Source: Jannaschia sp. GRR-S6-38 (GTDB lineage: Bacteria; Pseudomonadota; Alphaproteobacteria; Rhodobacterales; Rhodobacteraceae). From it: a DNA stretch of 64,000 nt. The notes under the pieces are model-generated. The model made no database searches. It saw only the letters and a program-made list of their open reading frames with translations, and was not told the DNA's origin. A program made the position numbers and the translations under genes. Where the stretch lies: assembly GCF_029853695.1 (NCBI RefSeq), contig NZ_CP122537.1:434001-498000 (forward strand), read 5' to 3'. Shown piece by piece: positions 8,024-23,493 of this stretch; the first letter of the stretch is position 1; the number at the start of each line of letters is the position of its first letter.

Positions 8024-8572
8024 TCACAAGGATTGGTTTAGGGCGTGGGGGGAAAAATCCAGTGCTCCGGTCTGCGACATGCCGTCAGCGGGGCGCGCGG
8101 GCGGCAGGTCGAAGGCCATGTCGGTGGCGGGCAGAACCACACCCGCGCGGATCCGCGGCGCGGGCGCGACCACCTGCCAGCCATGGCGCGCGAAGAAGGG
8201 CCGGGCCATGTCGCTGGCCCGCGTCGTCAACCGCGTCAGTCCGGCTGTGGCGGCGTGGTTCAGCAGCACGGCCAGCAGCGCGTCGGCCAGCCCGGTTCCG
8301 CGCCATTCGGGCAGGACATAAGCGGGGTCCAGGTGCCCGCTCGGGCCCAGCGTCATGAACCCGATCGGGTCGTCGCGCCCGTCGGCCACGACCACCGCCT
8401 GCGGGGCCAGCCGGTCGGCGAAGGCGGCAGGCGCGGGCGGCGCGGGCAGCCAGGCCGCCCGCTGGGCCGCATCGTAGCGGGGCGCGGCGCCTTCGTGCAC
8501 GGCCCGCCAGAAGATCCGCGCCAGCGCCACGGCATCCGCCGCGCCGCCGCGCCGGACAGTCCAGCCGGTCAC
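8024..8572 (-). CDS. GNAT-family N-acetyltransferase
   Basis: 182 residues. A GNAT fold protein with the acetyl-CoA pyrophosphate loop in YVLPEWRGTGLADALLAVLLNHA (R-x-T-G-L-A core), and the later ARPFFARHGWQVV segment typical of the family. Substrate cannot be deduced. Its ATG overlaps the metZ stop (ATGA), so it is probably co-transcribed with and translationally coupled to metZ and thus under the same SAM riboswitch. This suggests, without proving, a role in sulfur amino-acid metabolism or its detoxification. Confidence 0.82.
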   Translation of the reverse strand: MTGWTVRRGGAADAVALARIFWRAVHEGAAPRYDAAQRAAWLPAPPAPAAFADRLAPQAVVVADGRDDPIGFMTLGPSGHLDPAYVLPEWRGTGLADALLAVLLNHAATAGLTRLTTRASDMARPFFARHGWQVVAPAPRIRAGVVLPATDMAFDLPPARPADGMSQTGALDFSPHALNQSL

Positions 8573-9762: not shown

Positions 9763-9822
9763 CGTCGGGCCTCCTTCAGGCCGGAATTCGATCGCACCGA
9801 TAGGGGGAGGGCCTGGGCCGAA

Positions 9823-9876
9823 CCTCTTTAGCGGTTTGTTTAACGAGGGCCGCAAGCCGGTACCAAATCCCCTCGC
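9823..9876 (-). promoter_or_regulatory. SAM-II riboswitch in the metZ leader
   Basis: Read on the minus strand, the leader contains P1 arm CGAGGG (9875-9870) pairing with CCCTCG, enclosing GATTTGG, TACCGGCTTGCGG, and followed by the A-rich joining segment TTAAACAAACCGCTAAAG. This is the conserved primary sequence and order of the SAM-II (metA-type) H-pseudoknot: AUUUG, CCGGCUUGC, the P1 closure, then UUAAACAA and GCUAAA. It ends 60 bases before the metZ ATG. SAM-II typically lowers translation of methionine genes when S-adenosylmethionine is abundant, and is characteristic of alphaproteobacteria. Confidence 0.9.
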
Positions 9877-9974
9877 CGCAGGCGTTACGCGGGGCGACCG
9901 CCAAGATCAAGGGCGCTTGCATTCCGCCGCATCCGGATCATTGTGACTTGCGCCCCCGCGCCGGAGCCCGCGCC

Positions 9975-10682
9975 ATGTCCCAGCCCATCGACCTGTATTT
10001 CTGGCCCACGCCCAACGGCTGGAAGGTCTCGATAGCGCTCGAGGAGATGGGCCTGCCCTACACGCTGAACCTCGTCGACATCGGCAAGGGCGCGCAGTTC
10101 GACCCGGATTTCCTGCGCATCTCGCCCAACAACCGGATGCCGGCCATCGTCGACCCCGAGGGGCCCGACGGCGCGCCGATCGCGATCTTCGAAAGCGGCG
10201 CGATCCTGCAATACCTCGCCCGCAAGACCGGCCAATTCGGCGGCCGGACCGAGCGCGAGCGCATCGCCGTGGACCAGTGGCTGATGTGGCAGATGGGCGG
10301 GCTCGGCCCGATGGCGGGCCAGGCGCATCACTTCCTGAAATACGCCCCCGCGATGGATCCGCCGCAGGACCTGCCCTACGCGAAGGACCGCTACCGGGGC
10401 GAGACCTCGCGTCTCTACCGTGTGCTCGACACGCAGCTCGGGCAGAACCGCCATGTCGCCGGCGATTTCTACTCCATCGCCGACATGGCGATCTGGGGCT
10501 GGGCCTCGCTCTGGGAGGGGCAGCAACAGGTGTTGGACGACAAGCCGAACATGGCGCGGTGGCTCGACGAGGTCGGCCGGCGCCCGGGCGTGATCGCGGG
10601 CCGCGCGCTGGCCGCCGAAAAGCGCGCCGACTTCCGCAAGGAGGCCGCGTCGCAGGACCTCCTGTTCCGCCAGAAGGGCTGA
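9975..10682 (+). CDS. Glutathione S-transferase, Ure2p/YfcG-like
   Basis: 235 residues. Thioredoxin-like N-terminal domain (IDLYFWPTPNGWKVSIALEE, then RISPNNRMPAIVDPE and FESGAILQYLA) followed by the all-helical C-terminal domain (IADMAIWGWASLW). The TPNGWKVS motif is typical of the Ure2/YfcG/YghU branch, which has glutathione-dependent disulfide reductase or peroxidase activity more often than classic conjugation. The ATG at 9975 matches the family N-terminus; the frame is open upstream to 9948 without coding character. Divergent from metZ, with which it shares the 212-bp intergenic region. Confidence 0.92.
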   Translation: MSQPIDLYFWPTPNGWKVSIALEEMGLPYTLNLVDIGKGAQFDPDFLRISPNNRMPAIVDPEGPDGAPIAIFESGAILQYLARKTGQFGGRTERERIAVDQWLMWQMGGLGPMAGQAHHFLKYAPAMDPPQDLPYAKDRYRGETSRLYRVLDTQLGQNRHVAGDFYSIADMAIWGWASLWEGQQQVLDDKPNMARWLDEVGRRPGVIAGRALAAEKRADFRKEAASQDLLFRQKG

Positions 10683-10688
10683 GATCCC

Positions 10689-10718
10689 GCGCCCGCGGCA
10701 TCGCTTTGCCGCAGGCGC
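10689..10718 (+). terminator. Hairpin after the GST gene
   Basis: Twelve-base arms GCGCCCGCGGCA and TGCCGCAGGCGC (10689-10700, 10707-10718) pair with a single mismatch around a 6-nt loop, six bases after the GST stop. No U-run follows, so it is a probable but imperfect terminator separating GST from the next cluster. Confidence 0.45.
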
Positions 10719-10791
10719 GCACGCGCACTGGCGTCTTGCCGCGCGCCTCGTCTAAGGTGCCCGCGAAACGACCCCGGGAGGGGACTCGCCG

Positions 10792-10887
10792 ATGAAATCC
10801 CTTGGCGCGCAGAGGATCGCCTTCGCCGCGCTGGCCGTGCTGATCGCGCTGGCCGGGGCTGGCGTGCTGGATACCGGGGGGCTGTGA
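10792..10887 (+). CDS. Predicted 31-residue single-pass membrane peptide
   Basis: A small open frame begins MKSLGAQRIAFAALAVLIAL and continues to a stop at 10885-10887. It has a basic N-terminus and one strongly hydrophobic span (about residues 9-25). A good ribosome-binding site, GGGAGGGGAC, lies 7-8 bases upstream, and the stop is only four bases before the XpaC-like start. Position and signal suggest it is the true first gene of the cluster and not noise. No family is recognised; it could also be a leader or a secretion signal fragment. Confidence 0.5.
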   Translation: MKSLGAQRIAFAALAVLIALAGAGVLDTGGL

Positions 10888-10891
10888 CGCC

Positions 10892-11782
10892 ATGGCCCGC
10901 CGGTTCGGAGGCGAATTCAGCCCGCAGGGCAAGCCGAAGGGCGATCCGCGCCCGGTCCCCGCGCCCGCGCTGAAGCCGCCGCTGCGCGGCCGGGCCCGCG
11001 TCGCGATCCTGATGGTGCTGTCGGCGATTCCGGTGGTGACGGCCTTCGCGCAGGGCGGCCCGCTGGGCCTGGCCGGCAACCTGGCGGCCGGGGCCGCGAT
11101 CTTCGCCGGCGCGGTCGCCACCCGCGAGGGCCTGAAGGCCGAGGCCGCCTGGGCCGCGCGCCGCATCGCCCGCCGGCCCGCCCTGCCCCGCAAGCTGATC
11201 GGCGCGGTGCTGGTGGGCGTGGGCGTGATGCTGGCCGCCGCGACGGGGCTGTCGGGGCTGATCCCCGGCGCGCTCTACGGCGCGATCGCAGCGGCGCTGC
11301 ACCTCGCGAGCTTCGGAATGGACCCGATGTCCGACAAGGGGATGGAGGGGATCGACGCCTTCCAGACAGAACGCGTGGCCCGCACGATCGAGGAGGCCGA
11401 GCGCCACGTCTCGGCGATGGAGGATGCGGTGCTGCGCGCGCGCGACCGCGCGGCCGAGGCCCGCGTGTCGCAGGTCGCCGCCACCGCGCGCGCGATGTTC
11501 CGCACCGTCGAGGACGATCCGCGCGACCTGACCGCGGCGCGGAAATTCCTCGGCGTCTACCTGATGGCCGCGCGCGACGCGACGGCCAAGTTCGCCGATC
11601 TCTACGCCCAGACGCGCGACGCAGAGGCGAAGGCCGAGTATTTGGCGCTTCTCGACGACCTCGAGCGCGGGATGGAAGCGAAGCGCGAAACCCTGCTGAT
11701 TACCGACCGCACCGATCTCGATGTCGAGATCGAGGTCCTCCGGGACCGCCTGAAACGCGACGGCCTGCCCGTCCGGGATTGA
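10892..11782 (+). CDS. XpaC-like membrane protein (5-bromo-4-chloroindolyl phosphate hydrolysis family)
   Basis: 296 residues. Two hydrophobic hairpins (about residues 37-75 and 98-130) are followed by a long charged helical region (EEAERHVSAMEDAVLRARDR onward) with a C-terminal EVLRDRLKRDGL. This layout and its position directly ahead of a TelA homologue match the XpaC family. The family name is historical; enzymatic activity is not established and a role in membrane stress or toxic-anion resistance with TelA is the better guess. Start ATG at 10892, tightly spaced from the small upstream peptide. Confidence 0.75.
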   Translation: MARRFGGEFSPQGKPKGDPRPVPAPALKPPLRGRARVAILMVLSAIPVVTAFAQGGPLGLAGNLAAGAAIFAGAVATREGLKAEAAWAARRIARRPALPRKLIGAVLVGVGVMLAAATGLSGLIPGALYGAIAAALHLASFGMDPMSDKGMEGIDAFQTERVARTIEEAERHVSAMEDAVLRARDRAAEARVSQVAATARAMFRTVEDDPRDLTAARKFLGVYLMAARDATAKFADLYAQTRDAEAKAEYLALLDDLERGMEAKRETLLITDRTDLDVEIEVLRDRLKRDGLPVRD

Positions 11783-11793
11783 AAGGAACGAGT

Positions 11794-12987
11794 ATGGACA
11801 CCGCCACCCGCCAGAAAGCCGCCGAGGAAACCGCCGAGATCGCCGAGGTCAGCGCTCTGACCCTGCCCGAACCGGGCGGCGAGATCGTCCCGCTGGAGCG
11901 CGCGCCCGCCCCCGTCGCCGCCGATATCCGCAGGCGCATGGACGAGCTCGACATGACCGACACGCAGTCGATCATCGCCTTCGGCTCCGCCGCGCAGGCC
12001 GAGCTGCAGCAGATCAGCCAGGCGATGCTGGCGGATGTGAAGAACAAGGATGTGGGTCCCGCGGGGGATTCCCTGCGCTCCATCGTCTCGACGATCCGCG
12101 GCTTCTCGGTCTCCGAGCTGGACGTGCGCCGCAAGCGCTCGCTGTGGGAAAAGCTGCTGGGCCGCGCGGCGCCCTTCTCGAAATTCGTCTCGCGCTTCGA
12201 GGACGTCCAGGGCCAGATCGACCGCGTGACGGGCGACCTTCTGAAGCACGAGCATGTGCTCCTCAAGGACATCAAGTCGCTCGACAAGCTCTACGAGAAG
12301 ACGCTCGATTTCTACGAGGAGCTGGGCCTCTACATCGCCGCGGGCGAGGCCAAGCTGGCCGAGCTCGACCGCGACACGATCCCCGCGAAGGAGGCGGCGG
12401 TCGCGGCGCTGCCCGAGGACGACAAGATGATCGGCAGCCAGGAACTGCGCGACCTGCGCGCCGCGCGCGACGATCTGGAGCGCCGCGTCCACGACCTGAA
12501 GCTGACGCGGCAGGTCACGATGCAATCGCTGCCCTCGATCCGCCTGGTCCAGGAGAACGACAAGAGCCTCGTCACTAAGATCAACTCGACGCTGGTCAAC
12601 ACCGTCCCGCTTTGGGAAACCCAGCTTGCCCAGGCGGTTACGATCCAACGTTCACGTGAAGCGGCCGAGGCGGTGCGCGATGCCAACGACCTCACCAACG
12701 AGCTTCTGACCGCCAACGCCAAGAACCTGCGCGAGGCCAATGCCGTCGTGCGCACCGAGATGGAGCGCGGCGTCTTCGACATCGAGGCCGTCCGCCAGGC
12801 CAATGACGACCTCGTCGCCACGATCAACGAAAGCCTGCAAATCGCCGACGAGGGCAAGGCGCGCCGCGCCGAGGCCGAGAAGGAGCTCGAGAAGATGGAG
12901 CGGGAGCTGCGCGAGACGCTGGCCTCGGCCAAGGCGCGCGGCGACGGGACGGGCGACAATGCCGGCACGGCGGTGCCCGCGACGTGA
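11794..12987 (+). CDS. telA: TelA-family toxic anion resistance protein
   Basis: 397 residues, almost entirely alpha-helical with long coiled-coil-like stretches. Typical TelA features: SIIAFGSAAQAELQQISQAML near the N-terminus, GDSLRSIVSTIRGF, KRSLWEKLLGRA, and TMQSLPSIRLVQENDKSLV with VNTVPLWETQLAQAV. TelA proteins are linked to tellurite and cell-envelope stress resistance; the mechanism is unknown. The ATG at 11794 follows AAAGGAAC; the TTG at 11779 overlaps the upstream gene and is less likely. The stop overlaps the next gene's GTG start (GTGA). XpaC-TelA pairing is common in bacteria. Confidence 0.9.
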   Translation: MDTATRQKAAEETAEIAEVSALTLPEPGGEIVPLERAPAPVAADIRRRMDELDMTDTQSIIAFGSAAQAELQQISQAMLADVKNKDVGPAGDSLRSIVSTIRGFSVSELDVRRKRSLWEKLLGRAAPFSKFVSRFEDVQGQIDRVTGDLLKHEHVLLKDIKSLDKLYEKTLDFYEELGLYIAAGEAKLAELDRDTIPAKEAAVAALPEDDKMIGSQELRDLRAARDDLERRVHDLKLTRQVTMQSLPSIRLVQENDKSLVTKINSTLVNTVPLWETQLAQAVTIQRSREAAEAVRDANDLTNELLTANAKNLREANAVVRTEMERGVFDIEAVRQANDDLVATINESLQIADEGKARRAEAEKELEKMERELRETLASAKARGDGTGDNAGTAVPAT

Positions 12988-13934
12988 GGCCTTCGGGCCC
13001 GAGATGGCTGGCGGCGCTCTGCGCCGTGGCGCTGGCGGCCTGCCAGCCCGTGCAGGCCCCGGTCGATCCCTCGCCCGTGCCCGCGCAGCGCCCCGCGGTG
13101 CCCGTCCGGGAGGTGGGCCCCTCGGCCGAGAGCCGGGAGCTCGCGCGATACTACCGCCGGATCGAGCAGCGGCTTCTGTCGCAGGGTCTCTTGCGCCGCG
13201 ACGGCGGCGGGCCGGACACCGCCTTCGGCCCGCAGGACCTGGCGCGAAACTTCGAACGCATCGCGCTGTTCTCGGAATACGTGCAGGTCGGCGGGCGCTA
13301 CGTCGCGCAGCAGAGCCGGGCGCAACTGCGCCGCTGGGAGGGCCCGGTCCGCATCCAGATGCATTTCGGGGACTCGGTGGATGCGAATATGCGCCTGCAG
13401 GACCGGCTACGCGTCGAGGCCTTCGCCTCGCGCCTGCGCCGCCTGACCGCGCATCCGATCAGCGTCGTCTCCTCGGGCGGCAATTTCCACGTCTTCGTGG
13501 CCTCGGTGGACGAGCAGCGCGCCCTCGGCCCGGCCATCGCCCGGGTCGAGCCCGGCCTGAGCCGGTCCACCCTGCGCGAGATCTCCCAGCTCGGCCGCAA
13601 CACCTATTGCGCGGTCTACGCCTCCTCCACCGCCGCGCGGCCCAATTCCTACGTCTCTGCGGTGGCCCTGATCCGGTCGGAGCATCCCGACCTGATGCGC
13701 CAGAGCTGCTATCACGAGGAGATCGCGCAAGGCCTCGGTCTCGCCAATGACAGCCCCTCCGCGCGGCCGTCGATCTTCAACGACGACGAGGAATTCGCGC
13801 TCCTGACGACGCAGGACGAGTTCCTGCTCCGCATTCTCTACGACGACCGCCTGCGCGTCGGCATGACCGCCGAGCAGGCCCGTCCCATCGTCCGCCGCCT
13901 CGCTGCCGAGCTGCTCGGCACCGGCCCCGCCTGA
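12984..13934 (+). CDS. DUF2927-family lipoprotein
   Basis: 316 residues starting at GTG, overlapping the telA stop. The N-terminus carries a lipoprotein signal with lipobox ALAAC (Cys20), so it should be a membrane-anchored periplasmic protein. A Pro-rich linker to about residue 45 precedes a DUF2927-like domain containing GPVRIQMHFG, SSGGNFHVFV and the Cys/His-containing segment MRQSCYHEEIAQGLGL with LLTTQDEFLLRILYD. The QSCYHEEI...L pattern recalls a degenerate zincin-type site, but this is only a resemblance. Function unknown; translational coupling to telA points to the same process. Confidence 0.75.
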   Translation: MRPSGPRWLAALCAVALAACQPVQAPVDPSPVPAQRPAVPVREVGPSAESRELARYYRRIEQRLLSQGLLRRDGGGPDTAFGPQDLARNFERIALFSEYVQVGGRYVAQQSRAQLRRWEGPVRIQMHFGDSVDANMRLQDRLRVEAFASRLRRLTAHPISVVSSGGNFHVFVASVDEQRALGPAIARVEPGLSRSTLREISQLGRNTYCAVYASSTAARPNSYVSAVALIRSEHPDLMRQSCYHEEIAQGLGLANDSPSARPSIFNDDEEFALLTTQDEFLLRILYDDRLRVGMTAEQARPIVRRLAAELLGTGPA

Positions 13935-13937
13935 CCG

Positions 13938-14567
13938 ATGGGACAGCTCTTATCGCCGGATACTTTCGAGTTCTTCGCTCGGTATCTATTGGCCGGCTAT
14001 GTCGTCATCATCGTCCGGTCGCGCTTCGTTGCGGGCCTTCGGCCCAAACCTGCAGAACTTGTTGTCGAGGCAATCATTTTTAGCCTCATCATTCAGGTTC
14101 TCGTCGAAGCAGGAGCATGGCTAGTATCACTTGTCGGTTTCGTCCCCGCAAAATTTCCAGCCCGTGTCGATCTTCTTCTTAACGTTCTCGTCTGGCCGGC
14201 GTTGCTTGGCGCCTTGCTCGGCTGGAACCTCTCGAACGGCTGGAATAGGGCGATCCTGCGCCGTCTTTCGCTACCTGTCACACATCCCGTTCAGAGAGGG
14301 CATGATTTCGCGTTCGGGCAGGATCGCGACCCATGTTTCGTAATAGTTACCTACGAAGACGGGACCATCGTCAGGGGATGGTTCGGCGAATGCTCTTTGG
14401 CTTCGACGGATCCTGACCGTAGTGATCTGTTCTTGGAGCGCGTATATTCGGTCGATCAGGATGATCAGATGATAGAGCAATCCCCCGGCCGTTCTGCGCT
14501 GATAAGTCTGTCGCGAGTTCGTTCGATCGAGTTTCTCGATCCTGAAGGAGATGAGAATGGCACGTGA
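13938..14567 (+). CDS. DUF6338-family membrane protein
   Basis: 209 residues. Three hydrophobic segments in the first ~100 residues (FARYLLAGYVVIIV, AIIFSLIIQVLVEAGAWL, LNVLVWPALLGALLGW) and a cytosolic C-terminal beta-rich part with CFVIVTYEDGTIVRGWFGE, DLFLERVYSVD, and a final VRSIEFLDPEG, which match DUF6338. Codon use and base composition are visibly more A/T-rich than in all neighbours, suggesting recent acquisition. Starts three bases after the lipoprotein stop and overlaps the next small gene. Function unknown; family members turn up sporadically among accessory genes. Confidence 0.72.
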   Translation: MGQLLSPDTFEFFARYLLAGYVVIIVRSRFVAGLRPKPAELVVEAIIFSLIIQVLVEAGAWLVSLVGFVPAKFPARVDLLLNVLVWPALLGALLGWNLSNGWNRAILRRLSLPVTHPVQRGHDFAFGQDRDPCFVIVTYEDGTIVRGWFGECSLASTDPDRSDLFLERVYSVDQDDQMIEQSPGRSALISLSRVRSIEFLDPEGDENGT

Positions 14568-14727
14568 TGATCGACGCCTTCTGGTAGAAGGCTATTCGGC
14601 AAAACCCGTCCGGCAAGATACTGCCAAGCGCGGTCTTCAGGCAGGCGGGACTTCATCGAAGCCAAGCGGACCGCCGTCGAAGCTTCCGCGGGCAACCTCC
14701 TCCATTCAAAAGCCGAAGAAAGGTTAA
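14557..14727 (+). CDS. Small basic protein paired with the DUF6338 gene
   Basis: 56 residues, N-terminus MARDDRRLLVEGYSAKPV, then Gly/Ser/Pro/Lys-rich to the end (GPPSKLPR ... IQKPKKG). It begins inside the last codons of the DUF6338 gene with AAGGAG seven bases upstream and ends five bases before the SPFH gene start. The same A/T-rich composition as DUF6338 suggests that the two arrived together. The basic, disordered character suggests a protein- or membrane-surface-binding peptide. No family assignment can be made from the sequence alone. Confidence 0.55.
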   Translation: MARDDRRLLVEGYSAKPVRQDTAKRGLQAGGTSSKPSGPPSKLPRATSSIQKPKKG

Positions 14728-14732
14728 ACTCC

Positions 14733-15842
14733 ATGCCCATCTTCGACTTCCTGTCCGGCCAGTTCATCGACGTCATCGAGTGGACCGACGACACCCGCGA
14801 CACGCTGGTCTACCGGTTCGAGCGGCACGGCCACGAGATCAAGTACGGCGCCAAGCTGACGGTGCGCGAGGGGCAGGCCGCGGTCTTCATCCACGAGGGC
14901 CAGCTGGCCGATGTCTTCATGCCCGGTCTCTACATGCTCGAGACCAACAACATGCCCGTCATGACGACGCTGCAGCACTGGGACCACGGGTTCAAATCGC
15001 CGTTCAAGTCCGAGATCTACTTCGTCTCGACCACGCGCATGACCGACCTGAAATGGGGCACCAAGAACCCGATCACCCTGCGCGACCCGGAATTCGGCCC
15101 CGTCCGCCTGCGCGCCTTCGGGACCTACGCGATCAAGGTGGCCGATCCCGCCCGCTTCATGACCGAGATCGTCGGCACCGATGGCGAGTTCACCCGCGAC
15201 GAGATCCAGTTCCAGATCCGCAACATGATCGTGCAATCCGCATCCCGCGCGCTGGCGGCCAGCCGGATCCCCGTGCTCGACATGGCCGCCAATACCGACG
15301 AGCTGGGCCGCATCGTGGCCGAGCAGATCTCGGCCACGACCAAGGAATACGGCCTCGTGGTGCCCGAGCTCTATGTCGAGAATATCTCGCTGCCGCCCGC
15401 GGTCGAGGCGGCGCTCGATAAGCGCACCTCGATGGGCGTGATCGGCGATCTCGCCAAGTACCAGCAATTCGCTACCGCCGAGGCGATGCAGGACGCCGCG
15501 GGGACGCCGAATTCCGGAATGGGCATGGGCCTCGGCGCCGGCATGGGCATGGCGATGGGCAACATGATGGCGCAAGCCGGTCCCTGGGGCCAGGCCCCCG
15601 TCCAGGCGGCCCCGCCGCCGCCGCCCCCGCCGGTCGAGCATGTCTGGCACATCGCCGAGAACGGCCAGACCAAGGGCCCATTCTCGAAGGCGCGGCTGGG
15701 CCGGATGGTGAGCGAGGGCGAGGTCACGCGCGAGACGCTGGTCTGGACGCAGGGCCAGGACGGCTGGAAGACCGCCGATGACGTGGACGAGCTGGCCCAG
15801 CTCTTCACGGTGATGCCCCCGCCGCCGCCGCCCGCGGGATGA
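14733..15842 (+). CDS. SPFH/Band-7 protein (YdjI/virion-core-like) with C-terminal GYF_2 domain
   Basis: 369 residues. The N-terminal ~240 residues are an SPFH-like domain of the YdjI branch (IFDFLSGQFIDVIEWTDD, VREGQAAVFIHEGQLADVF, FGTYAIKVADPARFM). A Gly/Met-rich linker (MGMGLGAGMGMAMGNMM) and a Pro stretch lead to a GYF_2-type domain at about residues 300-360 (WHIAENGQTKGPFSKARLGRM ... TLVWTQGQDGWKTADDV). It ends in a proline run. YdjI-type proteins recruit partners to stressed membranes in Bacillus. GYF domains bind proline-rich ligands, so self-association through the poly-Pro tails is conceivable. Role here is inferred from context. Confidence 0.85.
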   Translation: MPIFDFLSGQFIDVIEWTDDTRDTLVYRFERHGHEIKYGAKLTVREGQAAVFIHEGQLADVFMPGLYMLETNNMPVMTTLQHWDHGFKSPFKSEIYFVSTTRMTDLKWGTKNPITLRDPEFGPVRLRAFGTYAIKVADPARFMTEIVGTDGEFTRDEIQFQIRNMIVQSASRALAASRIPVLDMAANTDELGRIVAEQISATTKEYGLVVPELYVENISLPPAVEAALDKRTSMGVIGDLAKYQQFATAEAMQDAAGTPNSGMGMGLGAGMGMAMGNMMAQAGPWGQAPVQAAPPPPPPPVEHVWHIAENGQTKGPFSKARLGRMVSEGEVTRETLVWTQGQDGWKTADDVDELAQLFTVMPPPPPPAG

Positions 15843-15843
15843 C

Positions 15844-16248
15844 ATGACCGGCCGGCGCGCGATAGACGGTCTGGCGATGGCGCTGCACTGGGCGGCGCTG
15901 CCGTCGCTCGTGGCCGCGTTGGCCCGTCCCGGCCCGGCCACGGGTTTGCTGATGGTTGCGCTCGCCACAGCCTGGATCGCGCTGACGGCGGTCCGCGGCC
16001 TTCGCCGGCCCGGCCCGAAGCTCGCGCCTCGGCTGCGCGCGCTGGTGCGCCCGGCGCATGGGTTGATGCTCGCCACCTTCGCCGCCGCGGCCGTCTGGAC
16101 GCTGATTGACCCGCCGGCTGCGCGCCCGCTTCTCCTCGCACTGCTCGGCGCGGCGGCGCTGCACGGCGTCTTCAACCTCTGGCGCGCCTCGGTCCTGGGC
16201 GACGGCGCCTTCCGCGCCATGCTGCCCCGCGCGATCACGGGAGCCTGA
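15844..16248 (+). CDS. Small b561-like membrane protein
   Basis: 134 residues with four hydrophobic segments. Histidines in ALHWAALPS, RPAHGLML and LHGVFNLWR sit where the neighbouring b561-type protein has haem-ligand candidates, so this looks like a shortened paralogue (DGLAMALHW, ALLGAAALHGVFNLWRASV ... DGAFRAMLPR matching DNALRIMAPR downstream). It starts one base after the SPFH stop and ends three bases before the next ATG. Whether it binds haem is uncertain; it may form a heterodimer with the next protein. Confidence 0.6.
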   Translation: MTGRRAIDGLAMALHWAALPSLVAALARPGPATGLLMVALATAWIALTAVRGLRRPGPKLAPRLRALVRPAHGLMLATFAAAAVWTLIDPPAARPLLLALLGAAALHGVFNLWRASVLGDGAFRAMLPRAITGA

Positions 16249-16251
16249 GCC

Positions 16252-16812
16252 ATGGCGCTGCCCGACGCGATCCGCCGCCGCCTGCCCAGCCGCCGCACCT
16301 GGCTCAAGGCCCTTCACTGGACGATGGTGCCCTTCTTCCTCTGGTTCCTGATCGTCACGCCCGGCGACGTGGCGCGGATCGGATCCTGGGCGGTGCAGCT
16401 GCACTCGGTCTTCGGGCTGATCTTCGTGACCATGGCGCTGGTCTGGACGGGCGATCTGCTCTGGCGCGGCCTCGCCTCGCGCCCGGGACCGAAGCTGCGC
16501 GGCGCGGCGCGCGCGATCCACCGGCCGCTGCACCTGACGATCATCTGGGGGCTGTTCGGCGTGGCGCTGACCGGCTTCCTGATCGGGCTCACGGCCAGCC
16601 GCATCCTGTTCGCGGGCGGCATCCTGCCCATCGCGCCCCCGATGGGCCTGCCCGAGGCGAACCGCTGGGTCGGCACGCTGCACACGATCGAGTTCTACAT
16701 CCTGGGCGGCATCGTCGCCTTCCACGCCGCCTTCCACATCTGGCGCCATCTGCGCCTGCGCGACAACGCGCTGCGGATCATGGCGCCCCGCGTGTTGCAC
16801 CGCTTCCTGTGA
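16252..16812 (+). CDS. Cytochrome b561-like integral membrane protein
   Basis: 186 residues, four transmembrane helices, with paired histidines suited to bis-haem ligation: LKALHWTMVPFF, VQLHSVFGL, IHRPLHLTI, TLHTIEFYI and FHAAFHIWRHLR. This matches the b561/Ni-Fe-hydrogenase b-subunit superfamily, which moves electrons across or within the inner membrane. It overlaps the next gene (GTGA). The donor and acceptor are not evident from context; a link to redox control in the neighbouring envelope-stress genes is speculative. Confidence 0.75.
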   Translation: MALPDAIRRRLPSRRTWLKALHWTMVPFFLWFLIVTPGDVARIGSWAVQLHSVFGLIFVTMALVWTGDLLWRGLASRPGPKLRGAARAIHRPLHLTIIWGLFGVALTGFLIGLTASRILFAGGILPIAPPMGLPEANRWVGTLHTIEFYILGGIVAFHAAFHIWRHLRLRDNALRIMAPRVLHRFL

Positions 16813-17936
16813 AGGTGCCCTCCGTCTCCCGCGAGCCGCCGCGCCCGCCCGAGGTCCCGAAGACCGAGGAGCATCGCTTCCCCTGCGACGCCTGCGGCGG
16901 AGACATGCGCTTCGATCCCGGCGGCGACCGCATGGTCTGCGACCATTGCGGCAATGTCGAAGCGTTGGGCCGCAGCGCCCCGGCCGCGATCCGCGAGATC
17001 GACATCGAGACGGGCCTCGCCGCCGCATCCGACGCCGAGATCGAGGAGACGCGCGTCCTCGCCTGCTCCAATTGCGGCGCGCAGGTCGAGTTCGACCCGG
17101 CCATCCACGCCGCCGAATGCCCGTTCTGCGCCACGCCCGTGGTCACCGACACCGGCACCAACCGCCATATCAAGCCCGCCGCGCTGATCCCCTTCGCACT
17201 GGAGGAGCGGCAGGCCCATGACGCGATGAACGCCTGGCTGGGCGGGCTGTGGTTCGCCCCGAACGGCTTGCAGAAATACGCCCGCAAGGGCCGCAAGATG
17301 TCGGGCATCTACGTCCCCTTCTGGACCTTCGACGCGCAGAGCGAGAGCGACTGGCGCGGTCAGCGCGGCGACACCTATTACGTGACCCGGACCGTCATGC
17401 GCGACGGCAAGCCCGTGCAGGTGCAAGTGCCCAAGATCCGCTGGACGCCGCGTCGCGGCCGCACCCGGCGGTTCTTCGACGACGTCACGATCCTCGCCTC
17501 GACGTCGCTGCCAAAGACCCATACCGACGCGCTCGAGCCTTGGGACATGTCCGCGCTGGCCCCCTACGCGCCGCAATTCCTCGCGGGATTCCGTGCCGAG
17601 GCCTACCGGATCGAGCTGGCCGACGGCCTGCGCGAGGCGCGGGCGCGGATGGACGCAGCCATCGCGCGCGACGTGCGCATGGCGATCGGCGGCGACCAGC
17701 AGCGGATCGAAGCGATCGACACGCGGCTGTCGGACGTGACCTTCAAGCATGTCCTGCTGCCGGTCTGGATCGCCGCCTACAAGTATCGCGGCACCAGCTA
17801 CCGTTTCGTCGTCAACGGCCAGACCGGCCGGGTGCAGGGCGAACGCCCGTGGTCGGCCGTCAAGATCGCGCTGGCGGTCCTGGCGGCGCTGGTGGTGGCG
17901 GCCATCGCCGCGGCGCTTTATGCCGGGGCGCAATGA
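16809..17936 (+). CDS. Membrane-anchored double zinc-ribbon protein (TFIIB-type ribbon)
   Basis: 375 residues from GTG 16809. Two zinc ribbons: CDACGGDMRF ... CDHCGN (residues ~26-46) and CSNCGAQVEF ... CPFCATPVV (~79-106). A beta-rich middle region (GIYVPFWTFDAQSESDW, YYVTRTVMRDGKPVQVQVPK, AYKYRGTSYRFVVNGQTG) precedes a single C-terminal transmembrane helix. Such proteins are often mislabelled as primosomal/helicase proteins; there is no helicase motif. It closes the 10.8-17.9 kb operon. Likely a membrane-tethered scaffold; function unknown. Confidence 0.75.
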   Translation: MKVPSVSREPPRPPEVPKTEEHRFPCDACGGDMRFDPGGDRMVCDHCGNVEALGRSAPAAIREIDIETGLAAASDAEIEETRVLACSNCGAQVEFDPAIHAAECPFCATPVVTDTGTNRHIKPAALIPFALEERQAHDAMNAWLGGLWFAPNGLQKYARKGRKMSGIYVPFWTFDAQSESDWRGQRGDTYYVTRTVMRDGKPVQVQVPKIRWTPRRGRTRRFFDDVTILASTSLPKTHTDALEPWDMSALAPYAPQFLAGFRAEAYRIELADGLREARARMDAAIARDVRMAIGGDQQRIEAIDTRLSDVTFKHVLLPVWIAAYKYRGTSYRFVVNGQTGRVQGERPWSAVKIALAVLAALVVAAIAAALYAGAQ

Positions 17937-17955
17937 GAAGCCGAAGGAAGACGCC

Positions 17956-18873
17956 ATGATCCTCTGCGCGGGCGAAGCCCTGATCGACATGCTGCCGCGC
18001 GAGACGCCGGATGGCGACGCTTTCCTGCCGGTACCGGGCGGCGCCGTCTTCAACACCGCGATCGCGCTGGGCCGGCTCGGCGCGCCGGTCGCGCTGCATA
18101 CCGGGCTCAGCCGCGACCTCTTCGGCCGGAAGCTGGCGCAGGCGATGGCGGATAGCGACGTCGAGAACCGCGCCGCGCTGTCGGATCGACCCACGACGCT
18201 GGCCTTCGTGACGCTCACCGACGGGCACGCGCAATACGCCTTCTACGACGAGGGAACGGCGGGCCGGATGCTGGGCCTCGCGGATGCGCCGTCGATGAAG
18301 GGGATCGAGGCGCTATTCATCGGCGGGATTTCCCTCGCGACCGAGCCCTGCGCCCGCGCCTATGAGGGGCTCGCCATCGGGCATCAGCACCTGCCGATGA
18401 TGATCGACCCGAACATCCGCCCGAATTTCATCGCCCATGAGGCCGCCTTCCGCGCCCGGCTCGAGCGTTTGCTGCATGCCGCCGACATCGTGAAACTGTC
18501 GGACGAGGACATGGCCTGGCTCAAGATGACGCCCGAGGATGTGCTGGATCACGGGGCCAAGGTGCTCTGCGTGACCGAGGGCGCGAAGGGCGTGGTCGCC
18601 GTGACGCGGCGCGGCACGGTGCGGGTCAAGGCGCAGAAGGTGACGGTCGTCGACACCGTCGGCGCGGGCGACACGTTCAACGCGGGCTTCCTGGCGGGGC
18701 TGCACCGCGCGGGCGCGCTGGCCGGGCTGCCGGAGGCGGCGCCCGCGGACGACATCCTGCGCGACGCGCTCGATCTGGGCAGCCGCGCCGCGGCCGTCAC
18801 CGTCAGCCGGGCAGGCGCCAACCCGCCCTGGGCCCGCGAGCTGGAGGCGGCGGACGCCGCCGGCGGGGATTGA
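17956..18873 (+). CDS. PfkB-family sugar kinase, fructokinase-like
   Basis: 305 residues, PfkB/ribokinase fold. Starts [20 protein letters not shown], has the substrate glycine motif [46 protein letters not shown], and the catalytic signature [18 protein letters not shown]. This pattern fits bacterial fructokinases, phosphorylating fructose at O6, though other ketose or ribose-type substrates remain possible. The ATG at 17956 is preceded by AAGGAAG and lies 19 bases after the zinc-ribbon stop. Four bases after its stop dtd begins. Confidence 0.85.
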
Positions 18874-18877
18874 GCCG

Positions 18878-19315
18878 TTGCGCGCCGTCCTGCAACGCGT
18901 CTCCGAGGCGCGGGTCGAGATCGACGGCGCCGTGGTCGGGCGCTGCGGGCCGGGCATGATGATCCTGGTCTGCGCCATGGCCGGCGACACCGAAGCCAAT
19001 GCCGAGGCGCTCGCCGCGCGCATCGCCAAGCTGCGCGTGTTCCGCGATGCGGAGGGGCGGATGAACCGCTCGGTGCTGGAGGCCGGCGGCGCGGCGCTGG
19101 TGGTCAGCCAGTTCACGCTGGCAGCCGACACCTCGCGCGGCAACCGGCCCGGCTTTTCCGCAGCCGCCCCGCCCGAAGAAGGCGAGCGTCTCTACGCGCA
19201 TTTCTGCGCGGCCCTGCGGGATGCGGGCCTCGCGGTCGAGACCGGCCGCTTCGGCGCCGACATGGCGGTCCACCTGGTCAATGACGGCCCCGTGACGATC
19301 CAGATGGAGCGCTGA
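18878..19315 (+). CDS. dtd: D-aminoacyl-tRNA deacylase
   Basis: 145 residues from a TTG start, which matches the family N-terminus ([17 protein letters not shown]). Removes D-amino acids, and glycine from tRNA-Ala, from mischarged tRNAs. The two active-site motifs are visible: [10 protein letters not shown] and, near the C-terminus, [10 protein letters not shown] with the Gly-cisPro element. No other start gives a correct length. Tightly packed between the fructokinase and speD. Confidence 0.94.
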
Positions 19316-19316
19316 G

Positions 19317-19667
19317 ATGATCGGGCGACATCTGATCCTGGAGCACTGGGGCGGGCTGATGGGCGAGGCCGTGCTGGAGGCCGCGATGCGCGAGGCCGCC
19401 CGCGCCGGCGGCGCGCATGTCCTTTCGGCGCAGTTCCATCCCTTCGAGGGCGGCGGCGTGACCGGCGTGCTGCTGCTCGCCGAAAGCCACATCTCCGTGC
19501 ACACCTGGCCCGAGCACGACTACGCGGCGCTCGATCTCTTCATGTGCGGCACGGCCGATGTCGAAGCCGCCGCCGACGCGCTGGACGAAGCCCTGCGCCC
19601 GCGCCGGTCGGACCGGCGGATCCTGGTGCGCGGGGCGTTGCGGCCCTCTATGAAGATCGACGCGTAA
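19317..19667 (+). CDS. speD: S-adenosylmethionine decarboxylase proenzyme
   Basis: 116 residues, the prokaryotic short form. Self-cleaves to create a pyruvoyl group and produces decarboxylated SAM, the aminopropyl donor for spermidine. The cleavage site is LAESHISVHTWPEHDYA, with Ser57 becoming the pyruvoyl group, plus His62 and Cys77 (LDLFMCG) as catalytic residues. It begins one base after the dtd stop and its 3' end faces the 3' end of the spermidine-synthase-like gene only 10 bases away. This supports a shared polyamine function despite opposite strands. Confidence 0.93.
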   Translation: MIGRHLILEHWGGLMGEAVLEAAMREAARAGGAHVLSAQFHPFEGGGVTGVLLLAESHISVHTWPEHDYAALDLFMCGTADVEAAADALDEALRPRRSDRRILVRGALRPSMKIDA

Positions 19668-19677
19668 AACCCTGATT

Positions 19678-21192
19678 CTACTGGAACCATCTGTCCCAGC
19701 CGGCGGTGTAGGCCCGCGGCAGCGGATGGGTCCGCAGCGTGTTGACCGGCCCCTCGCGCGGCCCGGTCTCGGCGTCGAAGACCTGCGCGGCGGACCAGAC
19801 CGCGGGCGTGAGCCAGCGCAGGTCTTGCGGATAGGGCGCCTGGCGCGGCCGCATCCTCACAGGGACGGCCAGAACGAAGCCCCAGAGGCCGAAGCTGGGC
19901 ACATAGGCTTGGTAAGGCGTCACCGACCATTCCGTCCGCAGGGTCCGCGCCACGATCCAGAACGCCTCGGGCGCGAACATGGGCGAGCCCGCCTGCGTGA
20001 CGACCACGCCCTGCGCCGACATCCGGGCCGCCAGAAGCCGGTAGAACTCCGCGCTGTAGAGCCTTGAAAGCGATAGGTTCTTCGGATCCGGAAGGTCGAG
20101 GATCGCGACGTCGAACCGGTCCGCGCCGTCCCGCACCCAGGTGAAGGCATCGGCGTTCACGACCGTAACGCGGTCGTCGCGCAGCGCGCCGTCATTGAGC
20201 GCCGCGAGGTCGGCGCGGTCGCGGAACAGGCCTGTCACCGCCGGGTCCAGATCGACCAGCACGACCGCCTCGGGATCCCAGCGCAGCACCTCGCGCGCGG
20301 CCATTCCGTCGCCGCCGCCCAGGATCAGCACGCGGGCCCGGCGCGGCGCCTGCGCCATGGCCGGATGGACCAGCGCCTCGTGGTAGCGATGCTCGTCGAT
20401 CGTGTCGAACTGGATCGCGCCGTCGAGATGCAGGCGCGTGCGCTCGCGGTGCCGCGTCACGGTGATCTGCTGGTAGGCGGAGCGCTCGTTCAGCACGATC
20501 TCCTCGGCGTAGAGGCGCGCGTCGAGCGCCGCTGCGATCGGGCCCGACCAGACCAGGGCCGCGGCCACGGCCAGCACGGCGGCGAACCAGCCGAGCCAGT
20601 CCCCCGCCCCGAGCCGCGCGCGGAAGAGCCAGAGCGTTCCGCCCGCGACGGCGAGGTTCATCAGCCCGAAACCCAGCCCCGCCGCCACCAGGCCCAGATG
20701 CGGTACGATCAGCACCGGGAAGGCCAGCGACGCGACCAGCGCGCCCAGATAATCGACGGAGAGGACGTTCTCGAACCGGAAGCGGCCGGCGCCGATCTCG
20801 GCCAGGATGCGGGCGAGAAGCGGGATCTCCATCCCCGAGAGCAGGCCCACGGCCACCAGCGCCCCGTAGAGCGGCAGCGCCACCGCCCCCGTCGCCGCGT
20901 AGCTGGCGAAGGTGACCAGCGCCGCGAAGCCGCCGATCAGCCCCAGCCCAATCTGCGCGCGCACGAAGCCCGTCACCGCGTCGATCACCCAGCGCGACGC
21001 CCAGGCGCCGACGCCCATCGCGGCGAGGAACACGCCGATGACGAAGCTGAACTGCCGGATCGAATCGCCCAGAAGGTAGCTCGACACCGTGGCGGCGATC
21101 AGCTCGTAGATCAGGCCCGCCACGGCCACCACGAGCGTCGTCGCCAGCAGCCAGATCTCGGCGCCCCGGTTGGGGCGGGCGGCCTCGCTCAA
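19678..21192 (-). CDS. Membrane-anchored spermidine synthase-like aminopropyltransferase
   Basis: 504 residues from a TTG that overlaps the DUF350 stop (TTGA). Residues ~12-230 contain about seven hydrophobic helices (LIYELIAATVSSYLLGDS, GLLSGMEIPLLARI). The C-terminal ~260 residues are a SpeE-type Rossmann domain: QQITVTRH, LHLDGAIQFDTIDEHRYHEA, RVLILGGGDGMAAREVLR, VVLVDLDPAVT, VVNADAFTWV, ILDLPDPKNLSLSRLYS. This is the transmembrane SpeE-like class that co-occurs with DUF350 and speD. Standard SpeE has DxPDP in the same place, so activity is plausible. The acceptor might be putrescine or a membrane or peptide amine. Confidence 0.88.
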   Translation of the reverse strand: MSEAARPNRGAEIWLLATTLVVAVAGLIYELIAATVSSYLLGDSIRQFSFVIGVFLAAMGVGAWASRWVIDAVTGFVRAQIGLGLIGGFAALVTFASYAATGAVALPLYGALVAVGLLSGMEIPLLARILAEIGAGRFRFENVLSVDYLGALVASLAFPVLIVPHLGLVAAGLGFGLMNLAVAGGTLWLFRARLGAGDWLGWFAAVLAVAAALVWSGPIAAALDARLYAEEIVLNERSAYQQITVTRHRERTRLHLDGAIQFDTIDEHRYHEALVHPAMAQAPRRARVLILGGGDGMAAREVLRWDPEAVVLVDLDPAVTGLFRDRADLAALNDGALRDDRVTVVNADAFTWVRDGADRFDVAILDLPDPKNLSLSRLYSAEFYRLLAARMSAQGVVVTQAGSPMFAPEAFWIVARTLRTEWSVTPYQAYVPSFGLWGFVLAVPVRMRPRQAPYPQDLRWLTPAVWSAAQVFDAETGPREGPVNTLRTHPLPRAYTAGWDRWFQ

Positions 21193-21413
21193 GCGCGCAT
21201 CACCGCGGCGATGATGATCGCCAGCGCGATGAACATGGCGCCCATGACGATGGCGATGGCGGTGTTCTGATCCTCCTCCAGCTCCTTGCGCAGGCTGAAG
21301 GGCGTCAGCGCCTCGATCAGCCACCACGAGCCGAGCAGCAGGAACAGCCCGAAGAAGGTGTAGAAGATCGTCGCGACGATCTCGGAGAAGAGGATGCCGT
21401 CGAAGGCGGTCAT
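21189..21413 (-). CDS. DUF350 (YjfL-like) membrane protein
   Basis: 74 residues, two transmembrane helices separated by a charged polar loop: TIFYTFFGLFLLLGSWWLIE, then LRKELEEDQNTAIAIVMGAM leading to the second helix. The E-x-x-x-x-N-T-A-x-A motif is the DUF350 hallmark; most DUF350 proteins hold two such units, so this is a minimal one. It overlaps the downstream spermidine-synthase-like gene. DUF350 proteins recur next to SpeE-like, SpeD and DUF4178 genes; biochemical role unknown. Confidence 0.85.
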   Translation of the reverse strand: MTAFDGILFSEIVATIFYTFFGLFLLLGSWWLIEALTPFSLRKELEEDQNTAIAIVMGAMFIALAIIIAAVMRA

Positions 21414-21429
21414 GTCGTGCTCCCTTTGG

Positions 21430-21591
21430 TCATTTCACGCGGATACGGCCCACGCCGCCCACTCCGGCCGAGCCGGTCCGGATGCTGGTCGCGCCGGTGT
21501 CGCGGCTGGCCACGCCCACCCCCGTCCAGGAGGCCCAGCCCGCGCCGGCCAGGATGGCCAGCGACAGCAAGGTGATCAGCAATCGGCCCAT
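21430..21591 (-). CDS. Small single-pass membrane or secreted protein
   Basis: 53 residues: MGRLLITLLSLAILAGAG then a Gly/Ser/Thr-rich tail (TGVGVASRDTGATSIRTGSA) ending in RIRVK. One N-terminal hydrophobic helix, which could be an anchor or a signal sequence. It starts one base after the stop of the larger DUF4178 gene and ends 16 bases before DUF350, so it is retained in the operon. No family recognised. Confidence 0.6.
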   Translation of the reverse strand: MGRLLITLLSLAILAGAGWASWTGVGVASRDTGATSIRTGSAGVGGVGRIRVK

Positions 21592-21592
21592 C

Positions 21593-22876
21593 TCAGTCGT
21601 CGCTCCAGTCGCCGCCCTTCCAGCGGGCCATGCGGTGACGGTAGGGGGCCGAGGCCACCCAGGCCAGCGCCAGCGCAAAGCCCGCCAGGGCGACGGTCAG
21701 CCAGGTGATGTTGGTGCGTCCCTCGTGGGCGGTGACGCGCAGCGGTACGCGGCCCGCGTCGCGGCTGCCCGCCTCGAGCTGCGACAGCGCCAGTTCGTAG
21801 CGGCCCGGCGCCGGCGGCTGAAAGCCCAGAGTGACGCTACGGCTGCCCTCGGTCCAGCTTTCGCCGCCCTCTGTGCCCGAATAGTAGCTGATCGCGCGCT
21901 CGGTATCGGCCAGCGGCGCACCGTCGGGCCCGGTCAGCGCGATGCCGTAGACGGCCCAGTCGTTTCGCAGGCGCTGGTCGAGCCGCAGCATCACCGGCCG
22001 ATCGGCATTCGTGATCTCGATCGCCAGCGGCGCCGACAGCTCGCGCGGCGGGGCATCCCAGACCAGCCGCCCCTCGCCGCGCATCGACAGCATCGCCAGC
22101 ACCGCGACCAGCGCCGCGGCCGTCAGGCCGCCGAACAGCGCGAGGTAGTATCCGCGATGCTGCTCGGCCTTCCAAGGCTGGAGCGGATGCGTGCCCTGCG
22201 GCACCGGCGGCGTGGCCCCGAAGGCCGCGGCGGCCTCGGGCCAATAGGTCGTGCGCTCGACCTCGCGCTCGACGCCCTGCCCGGCCCGCCCCTCGACGAA
22301 GGCCAGCATGTCGAGGGCCCGACCGTTCGGCATCATCGACACGGTCGTTCCGCGCGCGTCCTTGGCGGGCCGCCAGTTGAAGGCGCCCTCGACGAAATCG
22401 GTGCGCCAGTTCGAGGTCGCGTAATAGCGATAGGTCCGTCCCCGCCAGGCCCGGCTGGGCCGCTGCTCCGACCGCTCGACGACGGCCGAGGTCAGGAACC
22501 CGCCGCCCGGCCAGTCGCGCTGCTTGCGCGTCAGCAGGGTATGGCCGTCCTCGACGGTCAGCCAGGCATAGCCGTGGGTGGGCGAGAACAGCATGTGATC
22601 GGTCCAGCGCCAGGTCCGGCCCTCATAGGTCTCGGACTGGCCCAGCGTGCCGATGATGGTGAAGGGCACGCCCTCGATGCGGCCCTCCATCCCCAGCCGG
22701 AACGGACTCTCGGGGCGCGGCATGTCGCCGAAGACCTTCATCACGCGCCAGTCGTCCAGCGCGTCGAGCGCCGCCCCGCAATAGGAGCAGACCTGCATCA
22801 CCACGCGCCCGCCGCCCAGCACCGGCAGGCCGGCGCCGCAATTCGGACAGTCGATGGCGCGGGCGGCGTCGGTCAT
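21593..22876 (-). CDS. DUF4178 protein with zinc ribbon and two membrane segments
   Basis: 427 residues. N-terminal zinc ribbon CPNCGAGLPV ... CSYCGAALDALDD, a DUF4178 beta domain (GMEGRIEGVPFTIIGTLGQS ... WRWTDHMLFSPTHGYAWL), a transmembrane helix near residue 240 (YYLALFGGLTAAALVAVLAML), a predicted periplasmic beta-sandwich (RPVMLRLDQRLRNDWAVYGI ... PGRYELALSQLEAGS), and a second helix close to the C-terminus. ATGA overlap with the shorter DUF4178 gene upstream. Probably a membrane stress sensor or scaffold; no enzymatic motif is visible. Confidence 0.8.
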   Translation of the reverse strand: MTDAARAIDCPNCGAGLPVLGGGRVVMQVCSYCGAALDALDDWRVMKVFGDMPRPESPFRLGMEGRIEGVPFTIIGTLGQSETYEGRTWRWTDHMLFSPTHGYAWLTVEDGHTLLTRKQRDWPGGGFLTSAVVERSEQRPSRAWRGRTYRYYATSNWRTDFVEGAFNWRPAKDARGTTVSMMPNGRALDMLAFVEGRAGQGVEREVERTTYWPEAAAAFGATPPVPQGTHPLQPWKAEQHRGYYLALFGGLTAAALVAVLAMLSMRGEGRLVWDAPPRELSAPLAIEITNADRPVMLRLDQRLRNDWAVYGIALTGPDGAPLADTERAISYYSGTEGGESWTEGSRSVTLGFQPPAPGRYELALSQLEAGSRDAGRVPLRVTAHEGRTNITWLTVALAGFALALAWVASAPYRHRMARWKGGDWSDD

Positions 22877-23493
22877 GCCTCCTCCACCTCGAAGGGATCG
22901 ACCCAGTGGCCGAAGAACCACGCGGCGCGGTCGCGGCCGCCCTCGGACCAGATCTCGCCCGAGAGGATCGCGCCGCCATGGCCCGCGAAATTGGCGTAGA
23001 GATGCCGGTCGCCGATGGATACGGGCTCGGGCAGCTGGCCACGGAACGCGGTGGCCACGGCGTCGTCCACCTCGGTGCAGGTCCAACGCAGTCCCGCATG
23101 GTCGACCGTGGCGCCCACGCGGAACAGCTCGCGCCCGCCCGGCGGCGGGGGATCGGCCGGGCGCTGGATCGCGACGTCGCCCTCGTCGACCGAGACCCAG
23201 ACGCCCTCGCCGGCGAGGCTGCCGAAATACTCGTCCCAATGGCCCCGCCCGTAATCGTAGCGGACATGGCCCTGCGGCTCGAAGACCTGACCCGCCAGGC
23301 GCACGGACCGGCCCAGATAGATCAGCTCGGGCGCATCGAGCATCGCGCCCGCCTCGCCCGTCTTCCGCACGACCTCGCCGTCCAGCAGCACGGCCGAGCC
23401 GCAGAATTCGCAATTCACCATCCGCGCGAAGGCCAGGATCGGCGGCAGCGCGGCGCCGCAATTGGGACAGTTGGAGCGTTCCATTCCCGCCAC
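22873..23493 (-). CDS. Soluble DUF4178 zinc-ribbon protein
   Basis: 206 residues. Zinc ribbon NCPNCGAALPPIL ... NCEFCGSAVLL at residues 8-36, then a DUF4178-like domain with YLGRSVRLAGQVFEPQGHVR, WDEYFGSLAGEGVWVSVDEG and WVDPFEVEEA, and no transmembrane segment. A divergent paralogue of the next gene, which it overlaps (ATGA). The GTG at 23493 has GAGGG close upstream; the ATG at 23484 is an alternative start that removes three residues. It heads the DUF4178-small-DUF350-SpeE operon. Confidence 0.78.
   Translation of the reverse strand: MAGMERSNCPNCGAALPPILAFARMVNCEFCGSAVLLDGEVVRKTGEAGAMLDAPELIYLGRSVRLAGQVFEPQGHVRYDYGRGHWDEYFGSLAGEGVWVSVDEGDVAIQRPADPPPPGGRELFRVGATVDHAGLRWTCTEVDDAVATAFRGQLPEPVSIGDRHLYANFAGHGGAILSGEIWSEGGRDRAAWFFGHWVDPFEVEEA

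Follow-up and report, generated by a model that had tools for sequence, protein, structure and literature searches.

The Bacillus subtilis operon pspA-ydjGHI is the described system closest to one of our subjects, two neighbouring gene arrays (array 1, 10792-17936; array 2, 19317-23493) in a 64,000-nucleotide stretch of a Jannaschia genome, hereafter the window (C1:434001-498000; genome of 3.32 Mb, single contig, 99.81% complete). According to the available part of PMC8581546, YdjI is needed for the localisation of PspA, YdjG/H are needed for both, and the Bacillus SPFH protein, of the same family as the one encoded here, acts in membrane stress. A survey of phage shock protein systems (PMC11237479, available in part) describes PspA operons with SpeE-7TM, DUF350 and DUF4178, as well as ydjF-type operons with band-7 proteins and zinc ribbons; in its main text as available, TelA, XpaC and SPFH have 0 occurrences, "band-7" being used instead. 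XpaC-TelA (yaaN) pairs are described from Firmicutes. For example, Listeria lmo1966-1967 are listed in the accessible portion of PMC12791056 as LiaFSR-regulated and induced by GarKS, and are also termed cation efflux systems whose function is said not to be established; a mutant of lmo1967 (TelA) is 2-fold more sensitive to tellurite, and the nisin effect is larger (4-fold). A literature search for TelA with SPFH, with or without XpaC, found no paper, most subscription journals being outside its coverage.

How does the Jannaschia locus compare? As in pspA-ydjGHI, the SPFH gene of array 1 adjoins one for a membrane protein with a double zinc ribbon, which may be YpeB-like (PMC8581546 and PMC11237479, both as available in part), and PF13421 matches in B. 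subtilis as it does in the window SPFH protein. Array 1 differs in being without PspA and the TPM-type YdjH, in an SPFH protein that bears a GYF domain where Bacillus has a zinc ribbon, and in the addition of XpaC-TelA, DUF2927 and a transmembrane (TM) microprotein. The XpaC-type gene adjoins the TelA-type gene as in the Firmicutes pairs (PMC12791056, available portion), but here, in Gram-negatives, the pair belongs to a unit of six genes, SPFH and zinc-ribbon partners among them. We lean with moderate confidence toward array 1 being a PspA-less SPFH/zinc-ribbon membrane-protection complex in which XpaC-TelA would stand in PspA's place, array 2 being separate. A first-pass annotation, made from the DNA letters alone, had taken both arrays for a single PspA-less system.

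Gene order and conservation of array 1

Gene content was read from a listing of open reading frames (ORFs) and a Pfam scan of 20 window proteins. The six-gene unit comprises:

10792..10887 (+): hydrophobic microprotein, 31 aa, single-TM type (sequence MKSLGAQRIAFAALAVLIALAGAGVLDTGGL), with coding signal and conservation
10892..11782 (+): XpaC-like protein (PF10112, Halogen_Hydrol), Pfam E 4.4e-28
11797..12987 (+): TelA (PF05816), Pfam E 6.4e-106
12984..13934 (+): DUF2927, likely lipoprotein, Pfam 3e-60, metzincin-fold model
14733..15842 (+): SPFH (Band_7_1, PF13421) protein with C-terminal GYF_2, E 3.8e-100 and 1e-21
16809..17936 (+): double zinc ribbon, YdjG-like (ZnR), with two CxxC pairs, a long-strand domain and a C-terminal hydrophobic helix

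The sample of the order held 292 genomes from 112 genera, its listed zinc-ribbon matches all coming from one family, and the zinc-ribbon gene was found in 282 of the 292 genomes and 107 of the 112 genera. Neighbourhoods were taken at 139 loci: 59 from order-sample genomes, 40 of them drawn from the better-scoring, listed half of the zinc-ribbon matches, and 80 from named genomes, the best 80 of 203. Judged by the zinc-ribbon protein, the closest named relatives are from Jannaschia (75-79% identity). Leaving out 6 duplicates and 11 loci whose upstream sequence was too short gives 122 distinct Rhodobacteraceae loci, and 114 of these carry XpaC-TelA-DUF2927-SPFH-ZnR in that order, an arrangement that is beyond chance since it recurs in so many distinct loci. 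The adjacent PF10112 and PF05816 genes are kept within these 114. Six of the eight exceptions are without one to three genes (L072, L124, L128, L135, L138 and L139), one has ZnR inverted relative to the other four (L200), and in one the four others have no match beside ZnR (L228). Over the class, the zinc-ribbon alignment profile matched in 11 of 289 genomes, 4 in the family and thus 7 of 285 outside it; the eight outside-family loci have XpaC-TelA-SPFH-ZnR without a DUF2927 match in five cases, SPFH-ZnR alone in two and ZnR alone in one. Array 1 is thus borne out as a conserved unit, and gene order suggests that array 1 is a core, conserved operon of Rhodobacteraceae with optional inserts, probably transcribed together.

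The inserts are the following:

13938..14567 (+): DUF6338 protein, rare low-GC insertion, Pfam 2e-43
14551..14727 (+): 58-aa ORF, doubtful, without family match
15844..16248 (+): small hydrophobic protein, b561-like by eye, variable, without Pfam match
16252..16812 (+): cytochrome b561-type protein (b561b), variable, Pfam 3e-9

DUF6338 occurs in 1 of the 59 order-sample loci (L131) and 1 of 70 long named loci, and its GC content is 54% against 69% for the window; because of this low GC and rarity we regard it as an insertion and not as a core part. The b561-like genes were likewise rejected as core parts (b561b in 16 of the 70 long named loci). The gene list of the first-pass annotation is present in the window save for two details: DUF6338 was confirmed, whereas its supposed small partner, the 58-aa ORF, is doubtful and was rejected as a gene, having no family match, and of the two proteins called b561-like only the second matches cytochrome b561 in Pfam.

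The small membrane peptide said to head the array proved to be conserved. A hydrophobic small ORF (smORF; 20-60 codons) ends at the start of xpaC in 120 of 121 distinct loci, the one family locus below threshold (L267) having a similar, less hydrophobic peptide there. At other junctions such smORFs precede telA in 1/122 loci, DUF2927 in 0/123, SPFH in 0/126 and ZnR in 5/130, and among housekeeping genes the kinase (FrcK) in 17/79 and dtd in 9/114. The aligned microproteins share the motif [LVF]-Q-K-x-A-[FY]-x-x-L, with one column F or Y and another L in 125 of 126 rows each (duplicates kept), and for 14 sequences of the genus, compared in equal-length pairs, the ratio of nonsynonymous to synonymous polymorphism (pN/pS) is 0.36 in frame versus 1.49 and 1.89 in the other frames. 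A purine-rich GGGAGGGGA stretch precedes the start at 10792, and the positive residues ahead of the hydrophobic stretch suggest an N-in topology. Outside the family, no hydrophobic smORF was found by xpaC in the eight loci under a stricter rule; under a looser rule, one lies near xpaC in three of four loci examined (L152, L155 and L157, with a weaker motif) and none in the fourth. Array 1 thereby adds a tiny conserved gene of a size often missed by annotation.

DUF2927 would gain a clear structural hypothesis from its predicted model, which has a metzincin fold and is matrixin-like (MMP-7, karilysin). Where metzincins have HExxHxxGxxH, all 56 of 56 orthologues have EExxQxxGxxND; the catalytic Glu position is retained, while E, Q and N occupy the three zinc-histidine positions. 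A search over the phylum and the window genome itself found EExxQ in 32 of 32 loci, and two more paralogues in the same genome (C1:2563646-2564248 and 1227354-1227575) both have it. Judged by sequence alone, SIFND stands at the place of the Met-turn. No paper naming the family was found in a literature search whose coverage excluded most subscription journals.

The SPFH protein has a polyproline tract on either side of GYF_2: among 59 orthologues, 58 carry PPP within the 30 C-terminal residues and 57 directly before GYF; for the four other core proteins, the number with PPP in that C-terminal stretch is 0, 1, 0 and 0. Proline-rich peptides are ligands of GYF domains, and so a head-to-tail clasp between SPFH protomers through a GYF-polyproline contact is plausible. 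A sequence comparison with the PDB gave no relative of TelA below E 0.05, and a plasmid search with XpaC gave 2 partial matches. For the zinc-ribbon model, pore-toxin rows from Foldseek (probability at most about 0.13) were rejected as showing no homology and taken as a long-strand effect.

PspA (PF04012) has no match in the whole window genome, a control search being positive in 9 of 14 genomes, and so the description of the locus as PspA-less holds. None of the 20 scanned window proteins matches TPM (YdjH), for which the rest of the genome was not searched. In the order sample PspA is present in 82 genomes and undetected in 210 of 292, yet 282 keep the zinc-ribbon gene, which makes array 1 a candidate membrane-stress system of these genomes.

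Array 2 beside array 1

Array 2 is an independent polyamine/membrane cassette that stands beside array 1 only in the window's genus as sampled. Its genes, with SpeD convergent to the others as first annotated, are:

19317..19667 (+): SpeD, S-adenosylmethionine (AdoMet) decarboxylase (AdoMet_dc, PF02675), Pfam
19678..21327 (-): membrane-fused SpeE-like aminopropyltransferase (SpeE_TM, Spermine_synth, PF01564), NF002956 5.5e-180; start uncertain, its ORF overlapping DUF350
21189..21413 (-): half-length DUF350, 74 aa, matching profile positions 2-65 of 133
21430..21591 (-): small hydrophobic protein, 53 aa from ATG, from the ORF listing
21593..22876 (-): zinc ribbon (CxxC pairs, N-terminal) and DUF4178, with a hydrophobic C-terminal part, Pfam
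22873..23493 (-): zinc ribbon (CxxC pairs, N-terminal) and DUF4178, Pfam

From 10792, the start of the 31-aa peptide, to 19667, the end of SpeD, all ORFs are co-directional and, as had been noticed, many overlap or nearly touch (TelA/DUF2927 and b561b/ZnR each overlap by 4 nucleotides; DUF2927/DUF6338 are 3 apart), whereas 19678-23493 lies on the opposite strand.

Array 2 is a PspA-less relative of the published PspA-CesT/Tir operon with 7TM-SpeE, with which it shares a SpeE with a membrane part, DUF350 and DUF4178 (PMC11237479, in the part available); it differs in its two zinc-ribbon DUF4178 proteins, half-length DUF350 and convergent SpeD. The CesT/Tir-PspA dyad has no match among the scanned window proteins, and the genome has no PspA. 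The broader claim that all these genes recur around PspA loci therefore stands in part: SpeE/DUF350/DUF4178 and band-7/zinc ribbon are documented in the available parts of PMC11237479 and PMC8581546, but TelA and XpaC are not in that of PMC11237479.

Full-length SpeE_TM orthologues (over 590 bits) occur in 31 of the 292 genomes. The zinc-ribbon gene is present in all 31, a co-occurrence that is uninformative because nearly all genomes have it; 7 of the 31, all from the window's genus, have the two within a few kb of each other on the same contig. Across the 122 distinct loci, array 2 adjoins array 1 in 8, again all of this genus. Even there it is missing in 2 of 9 sampled genomes (L061 and L063), where dtd is followed directly by otnK-aminotransferase or by aminotransferase; the order dtd-aminotransferase also holds in L197 and L198, and L192 has neither array 2 nor the otnK/aminotransferase neighbours in the fetched stretch. 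In all 24 genomes where SpeE_TM is unlinked to array 1, all of other genera, its neighbourhood was examined: both DUF4178 genes accompany it in 24/24 and SpeD in 4/24, and array-1 core genes were found in 0/24 within the fetched stretches. SpeD stands beside array 2 in 5 of the 7 linked named Jannaschia loci, and DUF350 was found in 11 of 14 array-2 loci by one overlap rule and in 9 of 24 by a stricter one.

Genomes with SpeE_TM have PspA more often than those without (17/31 versus 65/261, Fisher p 0.001; by genus, 8/12 versus 32/100, p 0.026), tallies that were read by hand with kinship uncontrolled. This excess leans somewhat toward the PspA link that had been proposed for array 2.

Seven further SpeE_TM paralogues have 41-45% identity; SpeD was found in 5 of six such loci (L115-L120), and three of the six (L115, L116 and L120) also encode, ahead of the paralogue, a small protein and one that is by eye rhomboid-like/GNAT-like.

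Proposed mechanism and rival readings

If array 1 is a membrane-protection complex, it would work like the Bacillus pspA-ydjGHI complex minus PspA and YdjH. The zinc-ribbon protein would tether the SPFH protein to the inner membrane, the GYF domain would collect polyproline tails, its own or a neighbour's, into a scaffold, XpaC-TelA, which in Listeria is linked to tolerance of nisin and tellurite, would be the effector replacing PspA, and DUF2927, with its metzincin fold without zinc histidines, could form a periplasmic binding or sensing arm. A more specific version, that of a core Rhodobacteraceae PspA-independent surveillance complex in which the microprotein and XpaC-TelA replace PspA/YdjH, SPFH polymerises and the all-oxygen EExxQxxGxxND site of DUF2927 serves sensing or binding and not proteolysis, we regard as tentative and rather doubtful. 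Several points weigh against the membrane-protection reading. The zinc-ribbon protein matches YpeB only weakly; PspA and array 1 show no complementary distribution, since many of the 82 PspA genomes have the zinc-ribbon gene; and some loci of the family have no XpaC/TelA match, namely L072, L128 and L139, where SPFH-ZnR is kept, and L228, where ZnR stands alone. Outside the family, three of the eight loci (L153, L154 and L156, of which two share a genome) have no XpaC/TelA match, with at least 4 kb available on that side. Moreover, operon transcription, all protein-protein steps and the phenotype are things that we infer, a limit that also counts against it.

Is array 1 mainly a tellurite or other oxyanion resistance operon? 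The telA locus of Rhodobacter sphaeroides reportedly affects tellurite resistance, and both the Pfam name TelA and the tellurite sensitivity of the lmo1967 mutant point that way. We nevertheless consider this improbable: the Listeria nisin effect is the bigger one, and its genes are listed under LiaFSR (PMC12791056, as available), near-universal presence is ill-suited to niche metal resistance, and a same-family SPFH protein acts in Bacillus membrane stress (PMC8581546, available part). Less probable still is the combined system of the first-pass annotation, in which a zinc-ribbon scaffold, a membrane raft and polyamine modification would act together. The arrays do adjoin in the window and its relatives, published PspA operons contain SpeE/DUF350/DUF4178 or band-7/zinc ribbon (PMC11237479, in part), and in one genome (L140; G013:C30, about 8659-11084, reversed) a zinc-ribbon paralogue of 32-34% identity lies immediately ahead of SpeD and a soluble SpeE; no other zinc-ribbon/polyamine link was noticed outside the genus. 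However, linkage was seen in that single genus only, on which ground we reject the combined system, none of the 24 array-2 loci of other genera has an array-1 core gene within the fetched stretch, and 251 of the 282 zinc-ribbon genomes are without a full-length SpeE_TM orthologue.

For array 2 itself, the more likely reading is a polyamine cassette that would have a membrane role of its own. Its rival is a plain spermidine pathway (SpeD and membrane SpeE) with DUF350/DUF4178 as accessories, a serious minority view: SpeD is the genome's only PF02675 match and the SpeE-like protein its only PF01564 match, nspC has no match in the genome, and the SpeE-like protein scores 599 bits against the NCBIfam polyamine aminopropyltransferase model (NF002956), above the cut-off of 472. 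Against it, SpeD is seldom beside array 2 in other genera, while both DUF4178 genes always accompany SpeE_TM.

Other features of the window

Two housekeeping genes separate the arrays, dtd being present in 67 of the 70 long named loci:

17957..18873 (+): pfkB-family sugar kinase, housekeeping neighbour, Pfam E 8.8e-39
18878..19315 (+): dtd, D-aminoacyl-tRNA deacylase (Tyr_Deacylase), housekeeping neighbour, Pfam

Scans for promoters (1 found, 0.7 expected) and terminators (4 found, 5.0 expected) were uninformative; when upstream sequences of the genus are aligned, TAGGAT stands out as a possible -10-like element. An ARAGORN tRNA call at 11041-11133, inside xpaC, was dismissed because an Rfam search gives it no support. 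A SAM-alpha riboswitch (RF00521, 56.6 bits) at 9807-9884 (-) heads the reverse-strand ORF 8569-9855, which by eye is pyridoxal phosphate-dependent sulfhydrylase-like.

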